NCBI GenBank assembly: GCA_026414605.1 | Contig: JAOAIP010000020.1 | Location: 1 to 37,315 of the forward strand | Source of the DNA: Bacteroidia bacterium | Lineage (GTDB): Bacteria > Bacteroidota > Bacteroidia > B-17B0 > Aurantibacillaceae | Direction: 5' to 3' | DNA: 37,315 nt | In this document: in pieces, positions 21,821-37,315 of the stretch | How positions within the stretch are numbered: position 1 is the first letter of the stretch | How the letters are laid out: every line of letters begins with the position of its first letter | Made by a program: the position numbers and the translations under genes | The notes under the pieces: generated by a model | Database searches by the model: none | The model's input: only the letters and a program-made list of their open reading frames with translations | Told to the model about the DNA's origin: nothing

Positions 21821-21856
21821 AACGACATACTTTGTCGCTGAAGTAGCGTATATTTG
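21821..21856 (+). promoter_or_regulatory. Operator-promoter module 1 (CGACA-N5-TGTCG, N9, TATATTTG)
   Basis: AACGACA (21821-21827), 5-nt spacer, TGTCGCT (21833-21839; one base off perfect symmetry), then exactly 9 nt, then the -7 element TATATTTG (21849-21856). It faces the secreted-protein gene at 21950. The inverted repeat covers the place of the -33 promoter element, where a bound regulator would control access. Confidence 0.75.
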
Positions 21857-21949
21857 TAGTTAGAAAACTTTATCACTCTTGCCTAAAATGTTCTTTGAAA
21901 TTACATGAAAAATATCAATTTAATAGATTAACTTTTAAAACAAAAAACT

Positions 21950-22990
21950 ATGAAAACTTTGAATAAAATAATAGTAGCATTATTTTTAGCTACTTCAAGT
22001 ATCTTCTCTCAAAATAAAGAAGAGAATTTTGATTTGATCAAAAGAGTGAATGAAGAGATAGATAAATTGCAAGAAGAGTTAGGAGTTAAAGACTTATTAT
22101 TCTTTAGTTTTAAATACTCTAAACCTAAAGATACTAATAATGTTTATTATCAGGATTTAAAAAAGAAATTCAGTTACCAATTCACGGATAAGTTTTATAA
22201 TGATTTAGTAAAATTCTATAAGAGAGATAGGTATTTTAAACTAGGAGATATAACTGAGTATAATTACACGTGTTTCTTTCAGTTGTTCGATGACGAAAAG
22301 TATTACTATAGTTATTATGAAAAACATAAGAATGATAGAGATTATCTTTATGACATATGTGAAATGTCTAATTTGAATAAGCTATTTAAATTCGAAAAGA
22401 TAACTAACTTAGACCAATTGAAAGTAGGAGATAAAATATTAAGTTTATGGAAATACTCCGATGATTCTTTACCTTCTTATCTTAACAAATATCCTGTTTA
22501 TATTTATGGAAACTCTCAGATTATAAAATCATTCTATCGTTTTGATGAAGAGAAGTACTATAATAGAGGTTATCTGACTAGACTTGAGTATAATTTTAGA
22601 AGTGATCATGTATATTATATTTACAAAATAGTAGAACTAAATGAAAGGTATTCAGTATATTTCGTAACCTCTTCTAGATGGAATGAGTCAATTAAGTATA
22701 GACTATATTTTAAATACTTTATTTACGATAAAGAGTTAAATTACGTTTCTGATATTAGATATCAAAAAATAAATCCTAAAGACACCTTAGGTTTTGTTAG
22801 TTTGAATTTCCACTTGAAGTGTTACGGTATAGAATTATACAAGGTTAGTTATACAGGAGATTATATCCCTAATGAAATATCGTATAATAAGGATATAGAA
22901 AACAAAAAGAATGAAGAGAAATCGGTAGTTAAAAAGCAGAAAACAAATAAAAATAATTTAAAAGTAAATATTAATAAATTTAAAAATTAA
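21950..22990 (+). CDS. Secreted/periplasmic hypothetical protein
   Basis: A 346-residue protein with a signal peptide (KTLNKIIVALFLATSSIFS, cleavage near residue 20). I do not recognise the mature part: it is Tyr/Lys/Asp-rich, mixed alpha/beta in appearance, with a Lys/Asn-rich, probably disordered tail of about 40 residues (from DIENKKNEEKS on). The base and codon usage is strongly AT-biased, like the other island genes. Its promoter is operator-promoter module 1, about 87 bases of leader ahead of the ATG. It is followed, on the same strand, by the DUF262-type gene, which has its own -7 element. Confidence 0.7.
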   Translation: MKTLNKIIVALFLATSSIFSQNKEENFDLIKRVNEEIDKLQEELGVKDLLFFSFKYSKPKDTNNVYYQDLKKKFSYQFTDKFYNDLVKFYKRDRYFKLGDITEYNYTCFFQLFDDEKYYYSYYEKHKNDRDYLYDICEMSNLNKLFKFEKITNLDQLKVGDKILSLWKYSDDSLPSYLNKYPVYIYGNSQIIKSFYRFDEEKYYNRGYLTRLEYNFRSDHVYYIYKIVELNERYSVYFVTSSRWNESIKYRLYFKYFIYDKELNYVSDIRYQKINPKDTLGFVSLNFHLKCYGIELYKVSYTGDYIPNEISYNKDIENKKNEEKSVVKKQKTNKNNLKVNINKFKN

Positions 22991-23004
22991 TTTGGACAAT
23001 AGTG

Positions 23005-23035
23005 TTGTAAAATACTAAAAGGTTAAGTATTTTTG
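23005..23035 (+). promoter_or_regulatory. Bacteroidota-type promoter of the DUF262 gene
   Basis: TTG (23005-23007), 20 nt, then TATTTTTG (23028-23035), matching TAnnTTTG. The ATG follows 16 bases later. There is no CGACA/TGTCG repeat here. Confidence 0.55.
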
Positions 23036-23051
23036 CTCAAAAAAAATAATT

Positions 23052-23483
23052 ATGATTAATAATATTAAAAAAATTGAAGATTTATTTAAAAGGGAAAGTG
23101 TTTCAAAAATTGTCGTTCCACCATATCAAAGAGCGTATTCTTGGGAAGAAAAACAATTAATGGAGTTTATAAATGATATAAAAGAATATGCCCAAAAAGA
23201 CAAGAATTATTATTTAGGACATTTCATTTTTGAAGAAAATAAAAACAATGTATTAGAAGTAATTGATGGACAACAAAGGATAACCACAATTATACTTTTT
23301 TTGATAATATGTAAACATAAATTAAATACAAATGAGTTTGACTTGTATATTAATAAATTTGAAACTGTTAATTATGATCAAGAAAATTTTAATATAATTA
23401 AAGAGCAAATTTTTAAATTAAACTCGAATGAAGAAATAAAGAATTTTTTAGAGAAAAAAATTAATGAAATTAAAAAAAAATGA
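23052..23483 (+). CDS. DUF262 domain protein, N-terminal part (frame-broken)
   Basis: The 143-residue frame carries the DUF262 hallmarks: the motif PPYQRAYSWEEKQL (23-36), LGHFIF (55-60) and the nucleotide/ParB-like IDGQQRITTI (71-80). It ends at a TGA (23481) right behind a run of nine A (23472-23480). The +1 frame that opens there (ATG at 23464) continues the same protein to the DUF1524 end. With one A fewer the two frames fuse into one protein of about 620 residues, the usual size of DUF262-DUF1524 (GmrS/GmrD-like) proteins. Such proteins include type IV modification-dependent restriction enzymes and other phage-defence factors; that role here is inference. Confidence 0.8.
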   Translation: MINNIKKIEDLFKRESVSKIVVPPYQRAYSWEEKQLMEFINDIKEYAQKDKNYYLGHFIFEENKNNVLEVIDGQQRITTIILFLIICKHKLNTNEFDLYINKFETVNYDQENFNIIKEQIFKLNSNEEIKNFLEKKINEIKKK

Positions 23484-24912
23484 CAATACAACTTTGTCTT
23501 TTAAAAGAATAATTAATGCTTTAAATTATTTTTATAAAGAAATTAATGAACTTAATAATGAAGATGTAGGAAAGTTAATTAAGGTAATCTTTTCAGCTAA
23601 TATTTCAGTTTATATATCTCAAGATAAATCATTTTCTAATCAAGTATTCGAATTTCAAAATACAAGAGGAGTAAAACTTTCATTATTGGAAAAAGTTAAA
23701 TCAAAATTAATGAAAGAGGTTTATCTTAATTGTGATCTTGATAAAACAGAACAATTCATTGATAAAATCCAAAATAATTTTGCTGAAATTTTTAAACACG
23801 AAGAATTAATCAAATCTAAGTCATTTAGAGGAGAATTAAGTTTAGATCATATTTTGAGATTGCATTTAAGGGTTATTGATGATGGATCTAAGATAAATGG
23901 CAATAATAATGATAAAAGCAAATTTTATAGTCCAAGTATAAGTGATAATATTGAACAATCTGTTTTAGAATACATATCTAAAAGATTAGAAAGTTTTAAG
24001 GATAACAAAGATAAAAAAATTGCATACGTTGATAATTTATCAACTAAATTTAAAGAATCAGTATGTTTCTTTTGTGAGGAACTTGTAAATATTGATAAGG
24101 AAAACCCATTAATTGGCGATTGTTTAATTTTAGAAAGGGACATAAGCATTGAATTTTATATTTTACTCTATCATTTAAATAAAAAGGATTTATTAAAGAA
24201 TAGAGAGTTGGTAGAAAAATGGGAAAGATTACTTTATACGAGAGATTTCCACGATAGATATTATAGAGTTTGGTATAGAGATGATTTTCAAGAATTATAT
24301 TTAAAAATTTGTTCAAATAAAGATGTAATTGGTTGTTTAAATGATTATGTCCAAAATGGGTTCAGACCAGATTTAATGGATAATAATAATTTACAGGAAA
24401 CTGTGAAAAAATTTGTTGATGATAAAAAGGAAGATATTTTAAAAAATGCATATAATTTATGGTTTTCAAATAAGTTAATTTACTTATTATACAAATATGA
24501 AATAGATAATAGTGGTAATAAAGAAGAAGTTAGAAACCAATTAAGAGAAGTAATTAAATCTGGATATTCTCGAGAACATATACTACCGCAAGTAGGATGG
24601 GAAAAATTTATTGAAGAAACTATTAAAGATAAAAATCAAATAGAAAAGATTAAAAATAGTGTAAAGGACGTAATAAATGGTATAGGGAATTTATTAATTG
24701 TTACAAAAAATTTAAATTCAGAGAACGGGAACAAACATCCATCTAAAAAAACATATCCTCCCGAATGGGGAATTTCTTACAAGAATCATAATGATAACCA
24801 AAGTGAGTGGAATAATCCTGAAAATTGGGAAAGGATAATAGAGGAAAGAGGTAAAAAAATATTTGAATATTTAAGAGAAAATCTCTTGAGAGATCTCAAT
24901 CTAAAGAATTAG
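23464..24912 (+). CDS. DUF262/DUF1524 protein, C-terminal part (frame-broken)
   Basis: 482 residues in the +1 frame relative to the N-terminal part. It holds the helical middle of DUF262 proteins (QVFEFQNTRGVKLSLLEKVK is the typical post-DGQQR segment) and the DUF1524 HNH-like end: SREHILPQ (Glu371-His372) plus INGIGNLLIVTKNLNSENGN and the HPSKK lysines. The ATG at 23464 lies within the end of the upstream frame and is probably not a true start. Loss of one A from the A9 tract would restore the full protein. It is convergent with the WYL regulator gene, stop to stop 5 bases apart. Confidence 0.8.
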   Translation: MKLKKNDNTTLSFKRIINALNYFYKEINELNNEDVGKLIKVIFSANISVYISQDKSFSNQVFEFQNTRGVKLSLLEKVKSKLMKEVYLNCDLDKTEQFIDKIQNNFAEIFKHEELIKSKSFRGELSLDHILRLHLRVIDDGSKINGNNNDKSKFYSPSISDNIEQSVLEYISKRLESFKDNKDKKIAYVDNLSTKFKESVCFFCEELVNIDKENPLIGDCLILERDISIEFYILLYHLNKKDLLKNRELVEKWERLLYTRDFHDRYYRVWYRDDFQELYLKICSNKDVIGCLNDYVQNGFRPDLMDNNNLQETVKKFVDDKKEDILKNAYNLWFSNKLIYLLYKYEIDNSGNKEEVRNQLREVIKSGYSREHILPQVGWEKFIEETIKDKNQIEKIKNSVKDVINGIGNLLIVTKNLNSENGNKHPSKKTYPPEWGISYKNHNDNQSEWNNPENWERIIEERGKKIFEYLRENLLRDLNLKN

Positions 24913-24917
24913 TTTTT

Positions 24918-25832
24918 TTAATTACCATAATACCCCAAAGTACATTTTAAAATATCCTTTATCTCTTCCGCTAATTTCTTTGGTTTTAATACATAAGCAT
25001 TATCCCCATAAGAAAGTATTTGCATTATTAATTCGTATGTAATGCATACTTTTAATTTTACTCTTACCCAATTGGGTTTATCTGTTTTTTCTATTATTTG
25101 TGATGGATGTAGGGGGAAAGTTCTCAAATACTCTGCTTGTGTTTTTGCCATTTCCAATTCTATATTGAAGGGCTTATCGTCAGAGTTTACGGTAACGCCA
25201 TATACATTTTCAAAATGTTTTCGTAAATCAAAATCTTTGGGATAATTAAATTTAGAACGTGTTACTTCTAATGTAGTCATTCTCTCCAAAGCAAAGTGTT
25301 TAATTTTCTTTGAGTCCGTTTCAATGCCGATTAAATACCAACGTTGGTGAAACTCTTTTAATCCTAATGGTTGAACAAAACGGGCTTTTGTTTTATCTTC
25401 CCAAAGATTGTAGTAATTAAAAGTTACAATTTTTCTCAATCGTATGGCTTCTAGCAAATCGTAAAGGTGATGCATCCCTTGAATGGGCGATTTGTCAAAG
25501 TCAATATATTTTCCGTACAACTCATATTTGTTTTGGATATACATAAAGTCCAACAACTGTAATATCTTTTCGCTTGATTTGTCAAATGTTGTTATTTCTT
25601 CATCATCTTCAACAATTTTGTATTTTTGAATGTACTTATCGTATTTAATGGTAATTTTGTAAATATCTTCTATTTCCTTAATATCTCTTTGAAATGTACG
25701 AATGGTAAATGAAAAATCAGAATCGCTTAAATAATTTTCAAGATAGTTTTTTAAGGATTCAAAATCCATTGGTGTTGATTGCAATTTACGAATAATTAAA
25801 TGATGTCTTTTAATGATGGATACATACGACAT
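24918..25832 (-). CDS. WYL-domain transcriptional regulator
   Basis: A 304-residue regulator of the HTH-WYL-WCX class. A winged-helix DNA-binding part lies at about 8-75 (it contains FTIRTFQRDIKEIEDIY, a typical recognition helix), a linker helix follows, then the WYL domain (about 125-190) with TFNYYN, FVQPLGLKEF and the naming residues Trp165-Tyr166-Leu167, and a WCX-type C-terminal domain (about 215-300). Relatives such as BrxR and CapW are dimeric repressors that sit in defence islands and bind inverted repeats. Its own promoter carries a perfect AACGACA-N5-TGTCGTT repeat, so autoregulation is likely. The same repeat marks two other promoters of the island. Confidence 0.9.
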   Translation of the reverse strand: MSYVSIIKRHHLIIRKLQSTPMDFESLKNYLENYLSDSDFSFTIRTFQRDIKEIEDIYKITIKYDKYIQKYKIVEDDEEITTFDKSSEKILQLLDFMYIQNKYELYGKYIDFDKSPIQGMHHLYDLLEAIRLRKIVTFNYYNLWEDKTKARFVQPLGLKEFHQRWYLIGIETDSKKIKHFALERMTTLEVTRSKFNYPKDFDLRKHFENVYGVTVNSDDKPFNIELEMAKTQAEYLRTFPLHPSQIIEKTDKPNWVRVKLKVCITYELIMQILSYGDNAYVLKPKKLAEEIKDILKCTLGYYGN

Positions 25833-25848
25833 AGCAATAATTTTTTTG

Positions 25849-25884
25849 CAAATGTAATTACTTTAAACGACATAAATTGTCGTT
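25849..25884 (-). promoter_or_regulatory. Operator-promoter module 2 in front of the WYL gene
   Basis: On the minus strand AACGACA-ATTTA-TGTCGTT (25884-25866, perfect 7-bp arms), exactly 9 nt, then TACATTTG (25856-25849), a perfect TAnnTTTG. The WYL ATG follows 16 nt later, so the leader is about 10 bases. The layout suggests autoregulation. Confidence 0.8.
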
Positions 25885-25914
25885 GATTAAAATTTAGGCA
25901 GTATATGCAATGAG

Positions 25915-28900
25915 TTATTTGCTTTGCAATGCTATTAAGGAATGTGGGGCGTAAATAACTATTTTGGAATAATCATTTAATTGTAGTTCTTTTGCTGTTG
26001 ATTGGATAATTTCTTTTTGCCCATTTTTATTGTGAAGTTCTAATACTACTCTTTCGTAATTAGGTATTACAGTAAGGTATTGAAAATGGATGGAAAGTTG
26101 TTGTAATGCATCTTCATTTAGGGAAGTAACGAGAGCATCATTGATTGGTTGAAATTTATCTTCGTTGTTAAAAAGTGGATATTTTTTCCAAATTGGTAAT
26201 TCAAATTTATAGTCATTGAGTTTAATGAAACAATTATTGATAGTTGGTTGAATATTAAATCCGTTTTTAAGTAGAGTGTGTATAATATCTGCTGTTGGAT
26301 AGTAGGATGAAAGATTTAAATAGAGATTTAAATGATTATTAGGGTCAATGAAATCAAACAGGATATAGAGAGGATGAGTAGATACAAATTCATTGTATTT
26401 GAGATTAAATATTTTTGATAATTCTTCGGTGATAGAATTGTTGATATTCAAATCCCAACCTGCATTCATCAATAATTTTAAGATGTTTAGTAATTCAGAT
26501 GTATCATATTTTTGAATTTTTAATTCAAGTCCGTTCTTACTATGTTCTTTATTTATTTGAGGTTTAAAACTTTCTAATATCTTATAGAATAAAGTATTAT
26601 TGTAGATATTTTGGATATATAGGATATCTATGCTATTAGTTTTATTATTTTTAAGTTTTTGTAGATTATATCTATCGTGATAATTTACGTCTATGCCTTT
26701 ATTTATAAGATAGTTCAAGAAATCATAATTTCTCCAATAAATAGCATTACTTAAAAGAGTATTTTCTTCATAGACAAAATTCAAATCGAATTTGTATTTA
26801 TCACAGATGTAATCAAACAATGAATTAAATTTTTCTTTTAAGTTAGGATTAAATTCAGTTGAACAACGAAAATTTATTAAACTAAAGTAAATACTATGGT
26901 TTATATCTAATATGCAATTGTCAATATCAACATAATCAAGGATAGTTTTTAATACATCTAATGTTTCTTCATAATTAAAGTTGAGATAATTCTGTAGATA
27001 ATCTTGTAGTGTTTTTCCTGAGTTATTTATTACATTTATACATATTCCTGAATGCAGTAATGTTTTTACTACATCCACAATTGCTTCTCTTTTGTGATGT
27101 ATCAACGATTTGCTTTCAAGGACTTTCATTAAAAGTGTATTGTTTCTACTATCTAAAATATCAGGATTAAAGCCCAATTCTAATTGTTTAAGAAAATCAT
27201 CTGGTTTATTTAAATTTAAGTATAGAAATAATAACAGTGTGGAAATGTCTTTATCCTTATTATCTATTATTCCCTTGTCAATAAGGTGTTTTATGTATGA
27301 ATGCAGTTGTTCTTGTTTATCATCATAAGAGTCATCATCAAAGTATATAAATCCTTGTGTATTATCAATAAGATAGAGTAACCAATTCATTAAATAATTT
27401 TTATCCTTTAATTTCTCTTGAATAATATCGTTGTTTATTAAATAATAAAAAGCATTGCTTTCAGTTTGAATCATTATATTAATTAGAAATTTCAAATCTA
27501 ATTTTTCAATATCAAAATGTTGTTGATAGTATCTTAATAGGAATTCAATCTTTTGAATATCATCGGAATTATTATTTAGCATTTGAAGTGTAGTATTTAT
27601 TAGTTCTTCTGATTTATATTTATTCAAGATATTTTCAGCCAATGAATAATTACATTCGTTGAGTGTATTTGTCAATAATCTACTTAATAATTTTAATTTA
27701 TTTTTATGACTTAATTTTTCTTCCACAACTTCATAAAGTTCAATACTAATGTTGTTTTCAAGCAGGTTAATGATACTGTATTCTTTTTCTTCTAATCGAT
27801 TAAATATTGATTTATTAATATCGTAAATAACGGAATCAAAATTTTTCTTAATGATTGAATTAATGAAGTACCAAAATAATTTTTTATCAAATTTTTGACG
27901 CAGAGATTTCAGAAATTCTGGATTTACAAGTTTTGCAGTAACATACGCATTATTTGAATATAATAATTCTACGATATCTATTTCTCTTTCATAAAAAGCC
28001 ACATTTAATGGCGTGTCATACTCTTCATTTAGTTTATTGATATTTATTTCTTTTTTAATTAAATAACTAATTAACTCATATTTGTGTTCTGATGAAAAAT
28101 TTTTATTTCTTATAATTTTTATCAATAAATTATTATATTTATTATCACATGCGTTGAAGTCAATTTCTGTATATGAAAGCATAAATTCTATAAATTCTTT
28201 TTTTTCGGACACATTTAGTTCTTCGCATTCAATAAGTTTCATTAGTAATTTATTTCCATTTTCATCAGTTGCTTTAAATACTTCGTGATGGAATTTGTAT
28301 TTACTTTCAATTTGTGAATTTAAAATATACACAAAATCATCACGATGCAATTTTTCATTCATATAAATTTTAATGGCTAATAAATTCAAACGATTATTAT
28401 CGTTAAACTTAAATATCATGTGAAAAAAAATGTGAGCATAACCGTCAAAGTGTTTTCCTAATCCTACATTTAAAAGTTCATAGCATTTTTCGGAATAAAT
28501 GAATCGAAAGAAGTTGGGTTTTTTATCATCAGGTAATTTGTAATAAAACTCTTTCAAATAATGTTTTATTGTTGTGGGTTTAAGTATGTCTGATACAATA
28601 ATTTTACATTCTGAATGTTTATCATTGAAATCAATAATAAATTGCAATAACTTATCTAATTGCATACACTTTACACTTTCATAAAATAACAACTTGATCA
28701 TTTCAGATAGGTCTTCTTTCATTATGTGGTTATTTAAATTAAACTCTACGATTTTAGTAAGTACATCAAAATAATTGTTGTTTAAAATTAAACTCAATAT
28801 CTTTTGTTTTTTTTCATTATCGTATTTTTTTTCACCATAATTTGAAAAGATTGTGTTTAAACAATAAGTGGGATAAAATTCAAATGCAATTTTTAGTAAA

Positions 28901-29058
28901 TGTGCATCTTCATTGTTTAATGCATAATCTAATATCGTTTCTTTGTTTGCATTGATTGTCATTGGCAGATGATGTGCGGTGAGTATTTGTTTAATTTTTT
29001 CATAATCAGATGCATAAATAGCATCCCATACTAATTTTTGAACATCTTTTGTTTTCAT
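25915..29058 (-). CDS. Large ankyrin-repeat-type protein
   Basis: A 1047-residue protein without signal peptide or membrane segment, built of helical pairs. Recognisable ankyrin-like units are DTPLNVAFYEREIDIVELL, NTLLMKVLESKSL with VVKTLLHSGICINVINNSG, TLLSNAIYWRNYDFLNYLI and others. Many repeats are strongly diverged, so the exact number is not countable by eye. The last 100 residues lose the pattern and look globular. Ankyrin scaffolds bind proteins; the partner is unknown. It lies 62 bases behind the lipoprotein gene with a similar leader and is likely co-transcribed with it. It ends just ahead of operator-promoter module 2. AT-biased like the rest of the island. Confidence 0.75.
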   Translation of the reverse strand: MKTKDVQKLVWDAIYASDYEKIKQILTAHHLPMTINANKETILDYALNNEDAHLLKIAFEFYPTYCLNTIFSNYGEKKYDNEKKQKILSLILNNNYFDVLTKIVEFNLNNHIMKEDLSEMIKLLFYESVKCMQLDKLLQFIIDFNDKHSECKIIVSDILKPTTIKHYLKEFYYKLPDDKKPNFFRFIYSEKCYELLNVGLGKHFDGYAHIFFHMIFKFNDNNRLNLLAIKIYMNEKLHRDDFVYILNSQIESKYKFHHEVFKATDENGNKLLMKLIECEELNVSEKKEFIEFMLSYTEIDFNACDNKYNNLLIKIIRNKNFSSEHKYELISYLIKKEININKLNEEYDTPLNVAFYEREIDIVELLYSNNAYVTAKLVNPEFLKSLRQKFDKKLFWYFINSIIKKNFDSVIYDINKSIFNRLEEKEYSIINLLENNISIELYEVVEEKLSHKNKLKLLSRLLTNTLNECNYSLAENILNKYKSEELINTTLQMLNNNSDDIQKIEFLLRYYQQHFDIEKLDLKFLINIMIQTESNAFYYLINNDIIQEKLKDKNYLMNWLLYLIDNTQGFIYFDDDSYDDKQEQLHSYIKHLIDKGIIDNKDKDISTLLLFLYLNLNKPDDFLKQLELGFNPDILDSRNNTLLMKVLESKSLIHHKREAIVDVVKTLLHSGICINVINNSGKTLQDYLQNYLNFNYEETLDVLKTILDYVDIDNCILDINHSIYFSLINFRCSTEFNPNLKEKFNSLFDYICDKYKFDLNFVYEENTLLSNAIYWRNYDFLNYLINKGIDVNYHDRYNLQKLKNNKTNSIDILYIQNIYNNTLFYKILESFKPQINKEHSKNGLELKIQKYDTSELLNILKLLMNAGWDLNINNSITEELSKIFNLKYNEFVSTHPLYILFDFIDPNNHLNLYLNLSSYYPTADIIHTLLKNGFNIQPTINNCFIKLNDYKFELPIWKKYPLFNNEDKFQPINDALVTSLNEDALQQLSIHFQYLTVIPNYERVVLELHNKNGQKEIIQSTAKELQLNDYSKIVIYAPHSLIALQSK

Positions 29059-29120
29059 AGTTTTAAATTTTTGTTGTTAATGTTTAGTTTGTATTTATTA
29101 TTGTTATAGAAAACATTTTT

Positions 29121-29963
29121 TTACTTCCCACTTTTTACTTTCATTTTCATTCCTGTTGGAATTGAATAGATACTATAGGTATAATGTGCTGTGGGATAAG
29201 CAATCAATACAAGCACTATACTATCGTTTCTTATTCCAAATTCAACATCTTTCCATTTTATATCTGAGTGATATTTTTTGGAATCTATGAATGGATAATT
29301 TATTTTTTCATTGCTATTGGGTTCAGTAAAATTTTTATCAAAATAAATTTTTATCTGTTGATTTAACTCATCTATTTTACTTTTATCAATCATAAAGTCA
29401 TTTTTGGTAAGTATTTTTTTATTTTGAATATCCACATTTACAACTTTTGAATATAAATCAAAAGCATTTCCTCCACCTCCTGCACCTTGTATGCCTTCTA
29501 TTATTACAGAAAGAATTTTATCATTATAGGATAATATCTCAAATTTGCTACGAAACGTTGGAAAAATAGAAGGTATACCATAATCATTTGTATCCTTGCA
29601 AGACACACCTTTTTGTGCCTTTTTCAACATATTTTGGTAAATAGATTGGAAATAATTATTTATTTTTTGTTCAAACTCATTGTCTTGAAGTTCTTTAATT
29701 TTTGGGTAAAAAGATTGTTCTATGCTAAAACAGATATTGTCTAAGGTTGTATCTTTTATTTCAACAGAGTCAATAATATAGGATGGAAGTTTAGGTGATT
29801 GTTTCTTTTCTTCTGTATAGGTGTTTTCTGTAATTGGTTTTGAATCATTATTTTCATTTTCGTTTGTGCAATTTTGTAATACTTGACTTACACTTATTAT
29901 CATTAAAATTTTAATGAAGTGAATCGTTTTAATTTGATAAAAAAATTTTGTGATTGTTTTCAT
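29121..29963 (-). CDS. DUF3298/RsiV-like exported (lipo)protein
   Basis: A 280-residue exported protein with an N-terminal hydrophobic segment (about 14-30) and Cys32 in VLQNC. This could be a lipidation site, but Asn before Cys is atypical. A Asn/Glu/Thr-rich linker follows, then a domain with the DUF4163/DUF3298 pattern: SIEQSFYPKI, an IIEGIQGAGGGGNAFDLYSK strand-turn, VDIQNKKILTKNDFM, and a terminal FGIRNDSIVLVLIAYPTAHY strand pair. Related domains occur in RsiV and PdaC, where they bind cell-wall ligands such as lysozyme or peptidoglycan. The neighbouring ankyrin gene is probably in the same transcript. The function is not known. Confidence 0.7.
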   Translation of the reverse strand: MKTITKFFYQIKTIHFIKILMIISVSQVLQNCTNENENNDSKPITENTYTEEKKQSPKLPSYIIDSVEIKDTTLDNICFSIEQSFYPKIKELQDNEFEQKINNYFQSIYQNMLKKAQKGVSCKDTNDYGIPSIFPTFRSKFEILSYNDKILSVIIEGIQGAGGGGNAFDLYSKVVNVDIQNKKILTKNDFMIDKSKIDELNQQIKIYFDKNFTEPNSNEKINYPFIDSKKYHSDIKWKDVEFGIRNDSIVLVLIAYPTAHYTYSIYSIPTGMKMKVKSGK

Positions 29964-30184
29964 AGTTGTAAATTTTATATGTTGATGATAGAATAATTAA
30001 GACCTACGATTTAAGACAATTGATAACAAAACTTTTCTTTTGGAAATAGCAATTCAACACATATGTAAAAACAAAATCTTTTGCTACTCAATGATATAAC
30101 ACCAACTTTAATTTGTTACATCTAATTTATTTGATTGGTAGAATAGAATGTTTGAATATTAATATAATTTTTTGAACGGTTAAA

Positions 30185-30230
30185 ATTCACGGCTTCCCTC
30201 CCTCCATTATGGAGAGAGAGAAGCGTGAAT
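30185..30230 (-). terminator. Hairpin terminator behind the zinc-ribbon ORF
   Basis: Read on the minus strand, ATTCACGCTTC and, after a C/T-rich to G-rich inner stem with loop around ATAAT, GAAGCCGTGAAT pair almost fully (two G-U pairs, one bulge). The hairpin is followed by TTTTAA. It begins 10 bases after the stop codon at 30241, the expected place for an intrinsic terminator. The complementary strand would carry C-A mismatches, so the minus strand is the better-folding RNA. Confidence 0.6.
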
Positions 30231-30240
30231 AAGCACTCAA

Positions 30241-30396
30241 TTAGAATAATTGCTGAACCCATTTGATAAAGCGACCTAATCTCATCCAGACGTGAAAATC
30301 TCCTTTGGGGCATTTTTCTTGTGGTGGCACTTGATTAGGATTCGATGTGGTCCACCTTTTTCCACATTTGGCACATTGCCAATAATTAAAAGGCAT
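30241..30396 (-). CDS. Small zinc-ribbon protein (51 residues)
   Basis: A short frame with ATG at 30396 and TAA at 30241. The product begins PFNYWQCAKCGKRWTT and continues to EKCPKGDFHVWMRLG. Cys8, Cys11, Cys29 and His35 are well placed to bind one zinc. Small Bacteroidota proteins with a CxxC followed by a CPxGxxHxWxxLG block share this layout. A DNA/RNA- or protein-binding role is a guess. The frame competes with a 63-residue open frame in another phase (30122-30313), which has no motif. An overlapping short frame ends inside its start, and a hairpin terminator follows, so this looks like a real mini-operon. Confidence 0.65.
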   Translation of the reverse strand: MPFNYWQCAKCGKRWTTSNPNQVPPQEKCPKGDFHVWMRLGRFIKWVQQLF

Positions 30397-30520
30397 AGTT
30401 TTGGTTTTTTAAGGTTATGGCTACTCGTGTGGCTTTTCGCCATCCGCCCATTTTTTTAAGTGGTGAATGTCCACTGTTTTTGATGATGATTTTTAATCTT
30501 CTATAAAGAAACGCTTTCAC
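30386..30520 (-). CDS. Small basic ORF overlapping the zinc-ribbon gene
   Basis: A 44-residue frame opening with GTG at 30520 and ending TAA at 30386, so that its last 11 bases overlap the start of the zinc-ribbon gene. It is very basic (LYRRLKIII, PLKKMGGWRKATRVA). No family is recognised. Overlap of stop and start suggests coupled translation, but short open frames are also common by chance; other frames across the same bases show equally protein-like stretches. Confidence 0.3.
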   Translation of the reverse strand: MKAFLYRRLKIIIKNSGHSPLKKMGGWRKATRVAITLKNQNYAF

Positions 30521-30730
30521 CCATCCAAAACGGCAAACCTTTTACTGACTTAACAACCGAATTGCCCAATTGTCAATGTACCCTTAATTTACTTTTATCT
30601 TGTTTTTGCTTTATCAAAAATTCTTTAACGATCTTTACTCTAATTACTTCTCTTACTTACCAAGGACTTTGAATTAAAGAATAGAGAAAAATTAATAGCA
30701 AGACATCCATTTCATTTTCACTTATCAATA

Positions 30731-30766
30731 CAAATATACGCCCCCAAAACGACAAACTATGTCGTT
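30731..30766 (-). promoter_or_regulatory. Operator-promoter module 3, minus strand, beside the KAP gene
   Basis: AACGACA (30748-30754), 5 nt, TGTCGTT (30760-30766): perfect 7-bp arms. On the minus strand exactly 9 nt (TTGGGGGCG) lead to TATATTTG (30738-30731). The module therefore fires leftward, toward the small ORFs ending at the 30185 hairpin, with a leader of about 200-330 nt. The first ATG in the leader gives only a 7-residue peptide (30692-30715). The same operator lies upstream of the divergent KAP promoter and might act on both. Confidence 0.8.
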
Positions 30767-30797: not shown

Positions 30798-30827
30798 TTG
30801 TTTGTAAAAAAAAAGTATGTAACTTTG
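30798..30827 (+). promoter_or_regulatory. Bacteroidota-type promoter of the KAP NTPase gene
   Basis: TTG (30798-30800), 19 nt, then TAACTTTG (30820-30827), a perfect TAnnTTTG. The ATG at 30846 follows 18 bases later. The TTG at 30798 also opens the longest reading frame, but it would lie upstream of the transcription start implied by this promoter. Confidence 0.6.
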
Positions 30828-30845: not shown

Positions 30846-32456
30846 ATGAAATCAGATAACATTCTAAATTCAATAAAAAATTACTTAGCAAATGAGACCG
30901 ATTATGCATTAATGATTACAGGTGATTGGGGAACAGGAAAAACTTTTTATTTTAAAAATGATATTAAAGGAACACTTAAGAAACAGGGATTTAAGGTACT
31001 TTATATTTCTTTATATGGCAAAAATAATATCAATGATGTAAAAAATGAAATCTTATTAAGTTCTTTATCATCTAAAACAGAGTTAAAAAATATCATATCT
31101 TCAATAAGTATAGGAAAAATACCATACGTTAAAGATTTATCATCATTTATAAAAGGTGATAGTATTACTACTTTTTTACTTGAAAAAAGATTAGACAATA
31201 AGACAATTATATGCTTAGATGACTTGGAAAGAAAAAATAAAAATCTTGATTTGACAGAATTGTTTGGTTTTATAAATTTTTTAGTCACTGAAAGTAAATG
31301 TAAAGTATTTATCATAGTTAATGAAAATAAATTAGATGAAAAAGAATTTAGTATCATTAAAGAAAAAACAATAGGTCAAACATTAGTTTTTAATCCTAAT
31401 TTAGGTAATGTCTATGACAGTATTGTTTCTACCTACAAATCAAATAACGAATATCAAAAATTTCTTAATAAACAGAAACAAGTGATATTAAATTTTCTTA
31501 GTGATCAGAAATATTTTAACTTAAGAACGTTGATTTATGCATTAAATCAATTAAAAATTGTTTTTGAAAAATCAAGGTTAGTTTCAAATGAAAACATAGT
31601 AACTAATATTGTTGAGTTTGTTCTTGCACTTTCAATTGAATACAGGGAAAATAGATTAAACAATAAGGATAAAGACCGTTTTAAGGATTTTAATCCAGCA
31701 GAATTATATTTTGGTGGACTATTTGATACTGATAATAAAAATAGAGATAATAAAACGGAAAACAATAATAATAAAACAGATAAAGAGAATTGTTTTAATA
31801 TTAAAAATTTCCACAAAAAGTATAAACGCAAGTTTATCAAAGTATTTTGGGAGTCAATTTTTGATTTAGTAACAATAAATGATTTTGATTCAGATAAATT
31901 CGATAGTGAAATATCATCAATTGATATTGGAGATGAAGAAATAAAAAATCTAATTTTAGAACTTTCTTTTGAAAATGAATTAAAATTAGAAGATAAGGAC
32001 TATATTGATAAATCTGAGAAACTTATATCTTTAGCTAAAGATGGGAAACTTAAAAATATTGATGATTACTATTTTGCGATGTATAATATTGTTAGATATG
32101 ATAACTTACTAAGTAAAGATTTAAATGTACTTAAAGAAGATATAATTAAAGGTGCTGAAAAAAATACATCAAACTTAAAATTAGATTCAATCGTATTAAA
32201 AAAAATAGAAATTGATAATGAAATTTATTTGTTGAAAAAAGATCAATATTATTTGGATATATTAAAAGATTTACGTGATAAATTTATTAAAATTAGAGAC
32301 GAAGCAGAGTCAAAGCAAAGGGAAATACAAGCTAAAGAACTTGAAAGGAAATTATGTGATGGTGATATAAAAACATTTAAAGAGTTATTACTGAAACTTA
32401 AATATAATGTTCTTTCCTATATTGATTGTGATGAATTCTTTGAATGTTATAATTGA
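30846..32456 (+). CDS. KAP-family P-loop NTPase
   Basis: 536 residues from the ATG at 30846 (chosen because the -7 element at 30820-30827 places the transcript start after the TTG at 30798). Walker A is GDWGTGKT (26-33) and Walker B IICLDDLER (121-129), followed by a sensor-like FIIVNEN; this combination is typical of KAP NTPases. A helical, charged region follows, including an Asn/Lys/Asp low-complexity loop near 305-320, and ends in coiled-coil-like EAESKQREIQAKELERKL. KAP proteins occur in phage-exclusion and defence contexts; the role here is inferred. The frame ends at 32456, but the +1 frame carries on with similar charged helices to 32694, suggesting a frame break. AT-biased composition. 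Confidence 0.8.
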   Translation: MKSDNILNSIKNYLANETDYALMITGDWGTGKTFYFKNDIKGTLKKQGFKVLYISLYGKNNINDVKNEILLSSLSSKTELKNIISSISIGKIPYVKDLSSFIKGDSITTFLLEKRLDNKTIICLDDLERKNKNLDLTELFGFINFLVTESKCKVFIIVNENKLDEKEFSIIKEKTIGQTLVFNPNLGNVYDSIVSTYKSNNEYQKFLNKQKQVILNFLSDQKYFNLRTLIYALNQLKIVFEKSRLVSNENIVTNIVEFVLALSIEYRENRLNNKDKDRFKDFNPAELYFGGLFDTDNKNRDNKTENNNNKTDKENCFNIKNFHKKYKRKFIKVFWESIFDLVTINDFDSDKFDSEISSIDIGDEEIKNLILELSFENELKLEDKDYIDKSEKLISLAKDGKLKNIDDYYFAMYNIVRYDNLLSKDLNVLKEDIIKGAEKNTSNLKLDSIVLKKIEIDNEIYLLKKDQYYLDILKDLRDKFIKIRDEAESKQREIQAKELERKLCDGDIKTFKELLLKLKYNVLSYIDCDEFFECYN

Positions 32457-37031: not shown

Positions 37032-37081
37032 TGAGTAAAGATTTTATTATTTAATTTTTTTATTTGGGCGTGCCCCTTGCA

Positions 37082-37176
37082 GGCAACAGCCCACTTTTTC
37101 AAATTGTATTTTTTTAATTCAAAATGTTTTTCAAAACGACATAAAATGTCGTTTAAACTTTCAATCGGCTGTTGCC
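37082..37176. repeat. Inverted repeat GGCAACAGCC / GGCTGTTGCC
   Basis: A perfect 10-bp inverted repeat (37082-37091 and 37167-37176) bounds an AT-rich stretch that also contains the fourth CGACA/TGTCG operator-like palindrome. It is part of the structured region at the right edge. Confidence 0.6.
37135..37153. promoter_or_regulatory. Fourth AACGACA-N5-TGTCGTT inverted repeat
   Basis: Perfect 7-bp arms with spacer TAAAA. Neither strand has TAnnTTTG at the 9-nt distance; on the minus strand CATTTTG lies 2 nt too close and lacks the TA. It is about 100 bases ahead of the DUF6089-type gene on the minus strand. Confidence 0.6.
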
Positions 37177-37315
37177 TGATCGGGTCGGGCTGCTACGGGC
37201 TTCGCTATCGCTTCGGCAATCCCTTCGCTACGCTCAGGGCAGTGCCGGCGGTTCGCTTCGCTCACCGCCGCCCTCCGCATCCCTCACGCATTCCACCAAC
37301 TATCGTTGGTGGCTA
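37155..37315. repeat. GC-rich hairpin-dense repeat at the right edge
   Basis: An abrupt change from AT-rich to GC-rich sequence with short hairpins: CGGCGGT...ACCGCCG (37246-37270) and a perfect CCACCAAC-TATC-GTTGGTGG (37293-37312), plus repeated TTCGCT-ACGCTCA / TTCGCTTCGCTCA motifs. No open frame with protein-like character. It resembles the GC-rich intergenic repeats of several Bacteroidota genomes, and it runs off the window. Confidence 0.55.

Follow-up and report, generated by a model that had tools for sequence, protein, structure and literature searches.

The Caulobacter transcription activator DriD is a WYL protein that binds the palindrome ATACGAC-N7-GTCGTAT, in which arginine residues read the conserved guanines (PMC12340889). 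The DriD site extends over the -35 element and keeps a constant distance to the -10 element, in promoters with poor -35 boxes, and the protein is switched on by single-stranded DNA (ssDNA) but does not activate its own gene, driD (PMC12340889). The printed promoters read TGTCG-N11-CAATCT for driD, TGGCG-N11-CAAGGT for didA and TGGCG-N11-CAAGCC for bapE (PMC12340889). Other WYL proteins work in the opposite direction; BrxR and CapW are repressors of defence islands and bind palindromes near promoters. Here we describe a promoter module of a Bacteroidia bacterium that shares the operator core and the register of the DriD promoters, and discuss how a WYL regulator encoded beside it is likely to use it.

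The module was found in a stretch of 37,315 nt, referred to as the window, which constitutes contig 19 of a 2.48 Mb host genome in 76 contigs. The original prediction, made from this DNA alone, described three intergenic sites with a common layout, a fixed spacing and a perfect TAnnTTTG, and an exact re-reading agrees with it: all three match CGACA-N5-TGTCG-N11-TAnnTTTG, where N11 corresponds to 9 nt if counted from the seven-base arm (Table 1). The longer form given in its title, AACGACA-N5-TGTCGTT, holds for sites 2 and 3 but not for site 1, whose right arm is TGTCGCT. With at most one mismatch allowed, the window contains four CGACA-N5-TGTCG palindromes versus 0.14 expected from shuffles. 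By its placement site 2 would make the WYL gene autoregulated, and it is the weakest operator according to the position weight matrix (PWM; 14.3 versus a median of 24.4, at about the 5th percentile of modules). We consider it likely that the three sites are the promoters of a small regulon under the control of the WYL protein encoded in the window, which most likely acts as a DriD-type activator.

Table 1. Promoter sites, palindromes and genes of the window
Feature	Position	Strand	Description
Site 1	21821-21856	+	AACGACA-TACTT-TGTCGCT-GAAGTAGCG-TATATTTG
Site 1 operator	21821..21839	+	AACGACATACTTTGTCGCT; PWM score 24.6, close to the median for 115 modules in other genomes
Site 1 -7 element	21849..21856	+	TATATTTG; N11 from TGTCG
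Site 2	25884-25849	-	AACGACA-ATTTA-TGTCGTT-TAAAGTAAT-TACATTTG
Site 2 operator	25866..25884	-	AACGACAATTTATGTCGTT; faces the WYL gene (autoregulation)
Site 2 -7 element	25849..25856	-	TACATTTG
Site 3	30766-30731	-	AACGACA-TAGTT-TGTCGTT-TTGGGGGCG-TATATTTG
Site 3 operator	30748..30766	-	AACGACATAGTTTGTCGTT; PWM score 23.8
Site 3 -7 element	30731..30738	-	TATATTTG
Fourth palindrome	37137..37151		Belongs to the interspersed repeat, not to a promoter; may be a decoy
Secreted protein, 346 aa	21950..22990	+	Unknown family; first gene after site 1
GmrSD (DUF262)	23052..24912	+	Type IV restriction-like nuclease; GmrSD_N 3.8e-26, GmrSD_C 2.8e-5
WYL-domain regulator, 304 aa	24918..25832	-	wHTH-WYL-WCX; predicted DNA-binding protein for sites 1-3
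Large ankyrin-repeat protein	25915..29058	-	Within the island; no module directly ahead
Zinc-ribbon protein, 51 aa	30241..30396	-	First ORF after site 3; leader of ~330 nt; Zn_ribbon_8, below cut-off
P-loop protein	30846..32456	+	Candidate defence family PDC-S49; match 4.5e-42

Across the host genome the bare palindrome CGACA-N5-TGTCG occurs 51 times versus 0 for a reversed control; it is abundant because about 42 of these copies belong to one interspersed repeat, and about six others lie elsewhere, several of them apparently within genes. The full module of palindrome, N11 and TAnnTTTG is present exactly three times, all inside 9 kb of the window, and a whole-genome search found no N11-TAnnTTTG after any other palindrome, repeat copies included. 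It is therefore the promoter module and not the palindrome that is unique to the island. An expectation of far below one occurrence had been put forward for the fixed bases alone, which needs correcting for the bare palindrome; likewise, abundance without promoter association is literally what we find for the bare palindrome, by way of the repeats, and not for the full module.

The interspersed repeat, represented in the window at 37060-37315, occupies about 57 places in the genome and was not found in the three other genomes of the genus. Its outer stem covaries (for example CACACACCACAGC/GGCTGTGGTGTGT versus GCAGGCAACAGCC/GGCTGTTGCCTGC), with variable inserts nested inside, and about 42 copies carry a near-invariant operator-like CGACA-N5-TGTCG with PWM scores like those of true operators (median 22.5). 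These palindromes are possible decoys for the WYL protein. The share of genome palindromes that sit in the repeat, together with a 3' flank of site 3 that resembles the AT-rich flank of the repeat, might invite the view that the three promoter sites are repeat fragments devoid of regulatory meaning. However, no repeat copy is followed by N11-TAnnTTTG, and the view is already contradicted because the same module occurs in relatives that lack the repeat (a single weak match to its core across 20 other genomes); we give it next to no credence.

We searched 297 related genomes for exact, free-spacer and relaxed versions of the module. The exact version gave 15 matches in six genomes, and in five of these a match precedes the best homologue of the window WYL protein by 17-400 nt. 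When the spacer was left free between 0 and 30 nt, N11 accounted for 15 of 23 matches (binomial p ~2e-17). The relaxed pattern CGMCA-N5-TGKCG-N11-TAnnTTTG produced 31 matches in 20 genomes, while its reversed control gave four; 14 of these genomes have a match no more than 4 kb from the WYL gene. The module is present in 15/46 WYL-positive genomes versus 5/251 others (OR 24, p = 7e-10). A separate sample, which shares a few genomes with the first, was obtained by scanning the WYL family alignment against 84,980 genomes and comprises 80 loci, nearly all labelled Bacteroidota. With a free spacer, N11 prevails around these loci among exact matches (30/32) as well as with up to one (66/72) or two mismatches (89/99), while 20 of the 80 loci contain no relaxed module in the DNA examined. 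At another 20 loci, where gaps of 3-27 were tried, N11 was found in 14 of 18 cases. No N11 module was detected in 299 kb around 20 distant WYL genes; since N11 recurs at the loci of the subfamily, the module belongs to this WYL subfamily and not to WYL genes in general, a conclusion that is strongly supported. A generic dyad search upstream of WYL genes was noisy and is left out of the evidence. The regulon is real and family-wide. A scan of the genome and its relatives for the module near WYL and defence genes had been proposed as a check, and it has revealed both the association and the recurring N11; the WYL protein as the candidate regulator gains support from co-occurrence, proximity and the recurring spacing.

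The same surveys bear on the notion that another regulator, either a LexA-type SOS repressor or an unlinked factor, binds the module and that the WYL gene is merely one of its targets. SOS-like regulators do occur in Bacteroidetes, and a few genomes carry modules without a close WYL homologue, as is the case for the assemblies of 5 of the 20 module-bearing genomes. Yet the module goes with the WYL subfamily, in whose immediate vicinity it lies, and is lacking near other WYL genes, its operator is identical to the one bound by a characterised WYL protein, and the LexA-like boxes of Bacteroidetes (GGA-N5-TCC or CTAA-N5-TTAG) are unlike it, all of which renders a different regulator highly improbable. 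LexA was rejected as the regulator: its model TIGR00498 has no match in the host genome in a search that detected the positive control, and the box motifs differ.

The sequence logo of 118 modules reads CG[A/T]CA-[TC][AG]TTT-TG[T/G]CG-[TC][AT]-N9-TAnnTTTG. The modules behave like promoters in their placement: for 105 of the 118 an ORF begins no more than 300 nt away (median 24 nt), and two fall inside ORFs; among 676 TAnnTTTG elements without an operator the corresponding counts are 211 and 461. In flavobacteria the -7 box spans -12 to -5 (PMC9723704), so that the operator covers roughly -38 to -24, in agreement with the earlier claim that the repeat occupies the -33 region, and leaves no room for a -33 box. 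Indeed, a TTG at the usual -33 distance of 17-23 nt upstream of the TA is found in none of the 118 modules; as Flavobacteria generally have a weak -33 motif, however, the missing box is only a soft argument. The CAA of the DriD promoters can be read as -12 to -10 on account of the conserved G-14 (PMC12340889), and because the flavobacterial -7 box starts at -12 the N11 registers of the two phyla agree. The two phyla thus have operator, half-site variation and register in common. One relative carries a single operator flanked on either side by N11-TAnnTTTG (locus L105, ~5970; G188:C19:10950-11002), which apparently gives rise to two divergent promoters.

In the relatives the modules precede the WYL gene itself and a range of defence-type and other genes. 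These include an AAA ATPase of about 555 aa that adjoins the WYL gene (IetA-like), a second AAA protein that neighbours GmrSD, a DnaB/RadA-like ATPase, a DnaQ-like exonuclease (PDC-S48), a patatin effector of the CBASS type, an HNH protein that itself follows a UG39 reverse transcriptase, an M15 peptidase and RHS proteins; PD-(D/E)XK nucleases (PDC-S26) adjoin the WYL gene in two genomes. Some genomes (G107, with loci L094, L095 and L097, and the Chryseobacterium loci L201, L220 and L223) contain several modules each, ahead of patatin, M15 peptidase, HNH, RHS and LRR genes, and such multi-module genomes have a dispersed regulon instead of one island. The exact module is also encountered on viral or proviral contigs (L224, 5572-5605; L226, 1689-1722), once before a 97-aa phage gene and once before an RHS-type gene.

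In the window, the 346-aa secreted protein behind site 1 has no Pfam or PADLOC match, and GmrSD starts 62 nt after its gene and thus probably belongs to the same operon. At nine consecutive A residues (23464-23483) the GmrSD gene breaks up into two overlapping frames, which could reflect a frameshift, phase variation or an assembly error. The leader that separates the zinc-ribbon gene from site 3 has an ordinary structure (z 0.1), and a search of the window against Rfam gave no match at the gathering threshold; a sub-threshold similarity to the DUF805 RNA (RF03081) covers 30414-30479 on the minus strand of this leader (41.9 bits, gathering 51.1, E 3.5e-6). The PDC-S49 gene beside site 3 has a plain -7 element, TAACTTTG (30820-30827), about 18 nt before its start and without an operator. 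Relatives of the 346-aa, ankyrin, lipoprotein, zinc-ribbon and PDC-S49 genes were found at none of the module loci examined (by tblastn for the 346-aa protein); the window's own target genes are therefore not conserved targets, and only GmrSD recurs.

The WYL regulator matches the Pfam families WYL (1.1e-15) and WCX (1.7e-12). Its AlphaFold model (mean pLDDT 79) displays N-terminal HTH helices and a linker, residues 81-120, of low pLDDT (51-60). In the homodimeric activators of the DriD type, a three-helix bundle makes contact with RNAP beta and alphaCTD. The best structural match of the model is DriD (Z 14.5 over 192 residues of the C-domain), with a second DriD match at Z 13.2, and PafBC, BrxR and CapW rank behind it. 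By sequence the similarity to DriD is limited to WYL-WCX, with about 22% identity (E 3e-5 with the single sequence, 1e-11 by profile), and PafBC outscores DriD by profile (1e-19), where it is the best PDB match. The predicted fold alone does not tell an activator from a repressor.

The promoter geometry is more instructive in this respect. Two options had been offered in the original prediction, occlusion by a dimeric regulator and activation in place of a weak -33 box; the latter fits better with the fixed register, which the DriD promoters share, and with the lack of a -33 box, and we infer that the WYL protein binds the module and activates rather than represses. In this mechanism, a WYL homodimer would bind CGACA-N5-TGTCG at about -38 to -24, taking the place of the -33 box and sigma region 4, and by virtue of the N11 register to TAnnTTTG would keep the RNA polymerase at a promoter lacking this box. 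If the protein resembles DriD in this respect too, as is expected, its WYL domain would sense ssDNA, which presumably arises from DNA damage or phage infection and serves as the inducer; this would turn on the WYL gene together with the operon of the secreted protein and GmrSD, as well as the zinc-ribbon unit. Alternatively, the WYL protein could be a repressor of the BrxR/CapW type that occludes the -33 region until a phage or damage signal releases it. Autoregulated repressors are common, and the island content is defence-like, with GmrSD and PDC-S49 in the window and PDC-S26, PDC-S48, patatin and IetA-like proteins in relatives, in keeping with the role of BrxR and CapW. But the operators of CapW overlap the -10 element and the repeat bound by BrxR is situated between the predicted -10 and brxR, whereas the operator described here is located upstream; occlusion does not need the one fixed register seen in about 90% of cases, no -33 box remains from which an unrepressed promoter could operate, and the register matches that of the DriD promoters. 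We therefore deem a repressor unlikely and retain DriD-type activation as the preferred reading.

In the literature found on DriD, PafBC, SiwR, BrxR, CapW and the LexA-like repressors of Bacteroidetes, a search confined mostly to papers outside subscription, the module is not described. It provides a precise promoter signature by which WYL-controlled defence genes can be searched for throughout Bacteroidota, predicts unknown defence genes and opens the activation of defence islands by WYL proteins to direct tests. It would also link the induction of defence to a DriD-type damage response, with operator and register conserved between two phyla that use different -10/-7 boxes. More tentatively, and with slightly less than even confidence, we propose a phylum-wide, SOS-independent response of Bacteroidota in which DriD-like ssDNA-sensing WYL activators would induce defence islands via fixed-register promoters shared with Caulobacter, and in which the ~42 repeat operators may act as threshold-setting decoys in the present host.

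Compared with the systems characterised to date, the module is closest to DriD. The operator ACGAC-N7-GTCGT is common to the Caulobacter sites and to sites 1-3, the TGTCG/TGGCG half-site variation recurs in the Bacteroidota modules, and both systems have N11 between half-site and -12, a non-optimal -35 and an operator in place of the -35 box; the proteins share the wHTH-WYL-WCX architecture, with DriD (PDB 8TP8, 9PFQ) as the top structural match. They differ in phylum and sigma factor, the Bacteroidota modules using the TAnnTTTG -7 box, in protein sequence, with the low identity restricted to WYL-WCX, and in targets, since DriD controls didA, bapE, recJ and dnaG whereas here defence-type genes and the WYL gene itself follow the module. 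Mycobacterial PafBC and SiwR are also WYL activators, act in the -26 promoter region and are triggered by genotoxic stress; PafBC functions by sigma adaptation, but it is a heterodimer with a non-palindromic motif (PMC6789036), unlike the palindromic site and single WYL gene reported here. BrxR and CapW are likewise WYL-WCX regulators linked to phage-defence islands with palindromic sites, and a BrxR spacer also measures 5 bp; they differ as repressors with operators over or downstream of the -10 element, and the parts of the literature on them that were covered describe no fixed upstream register. The LexA-like SOS repressors of Bacteroidetes have the phylum, the damage response and N5-spaced palindromes in common with the module, but are S24 peptidase proteins that recognise other motifs and target DNA-repair genes.
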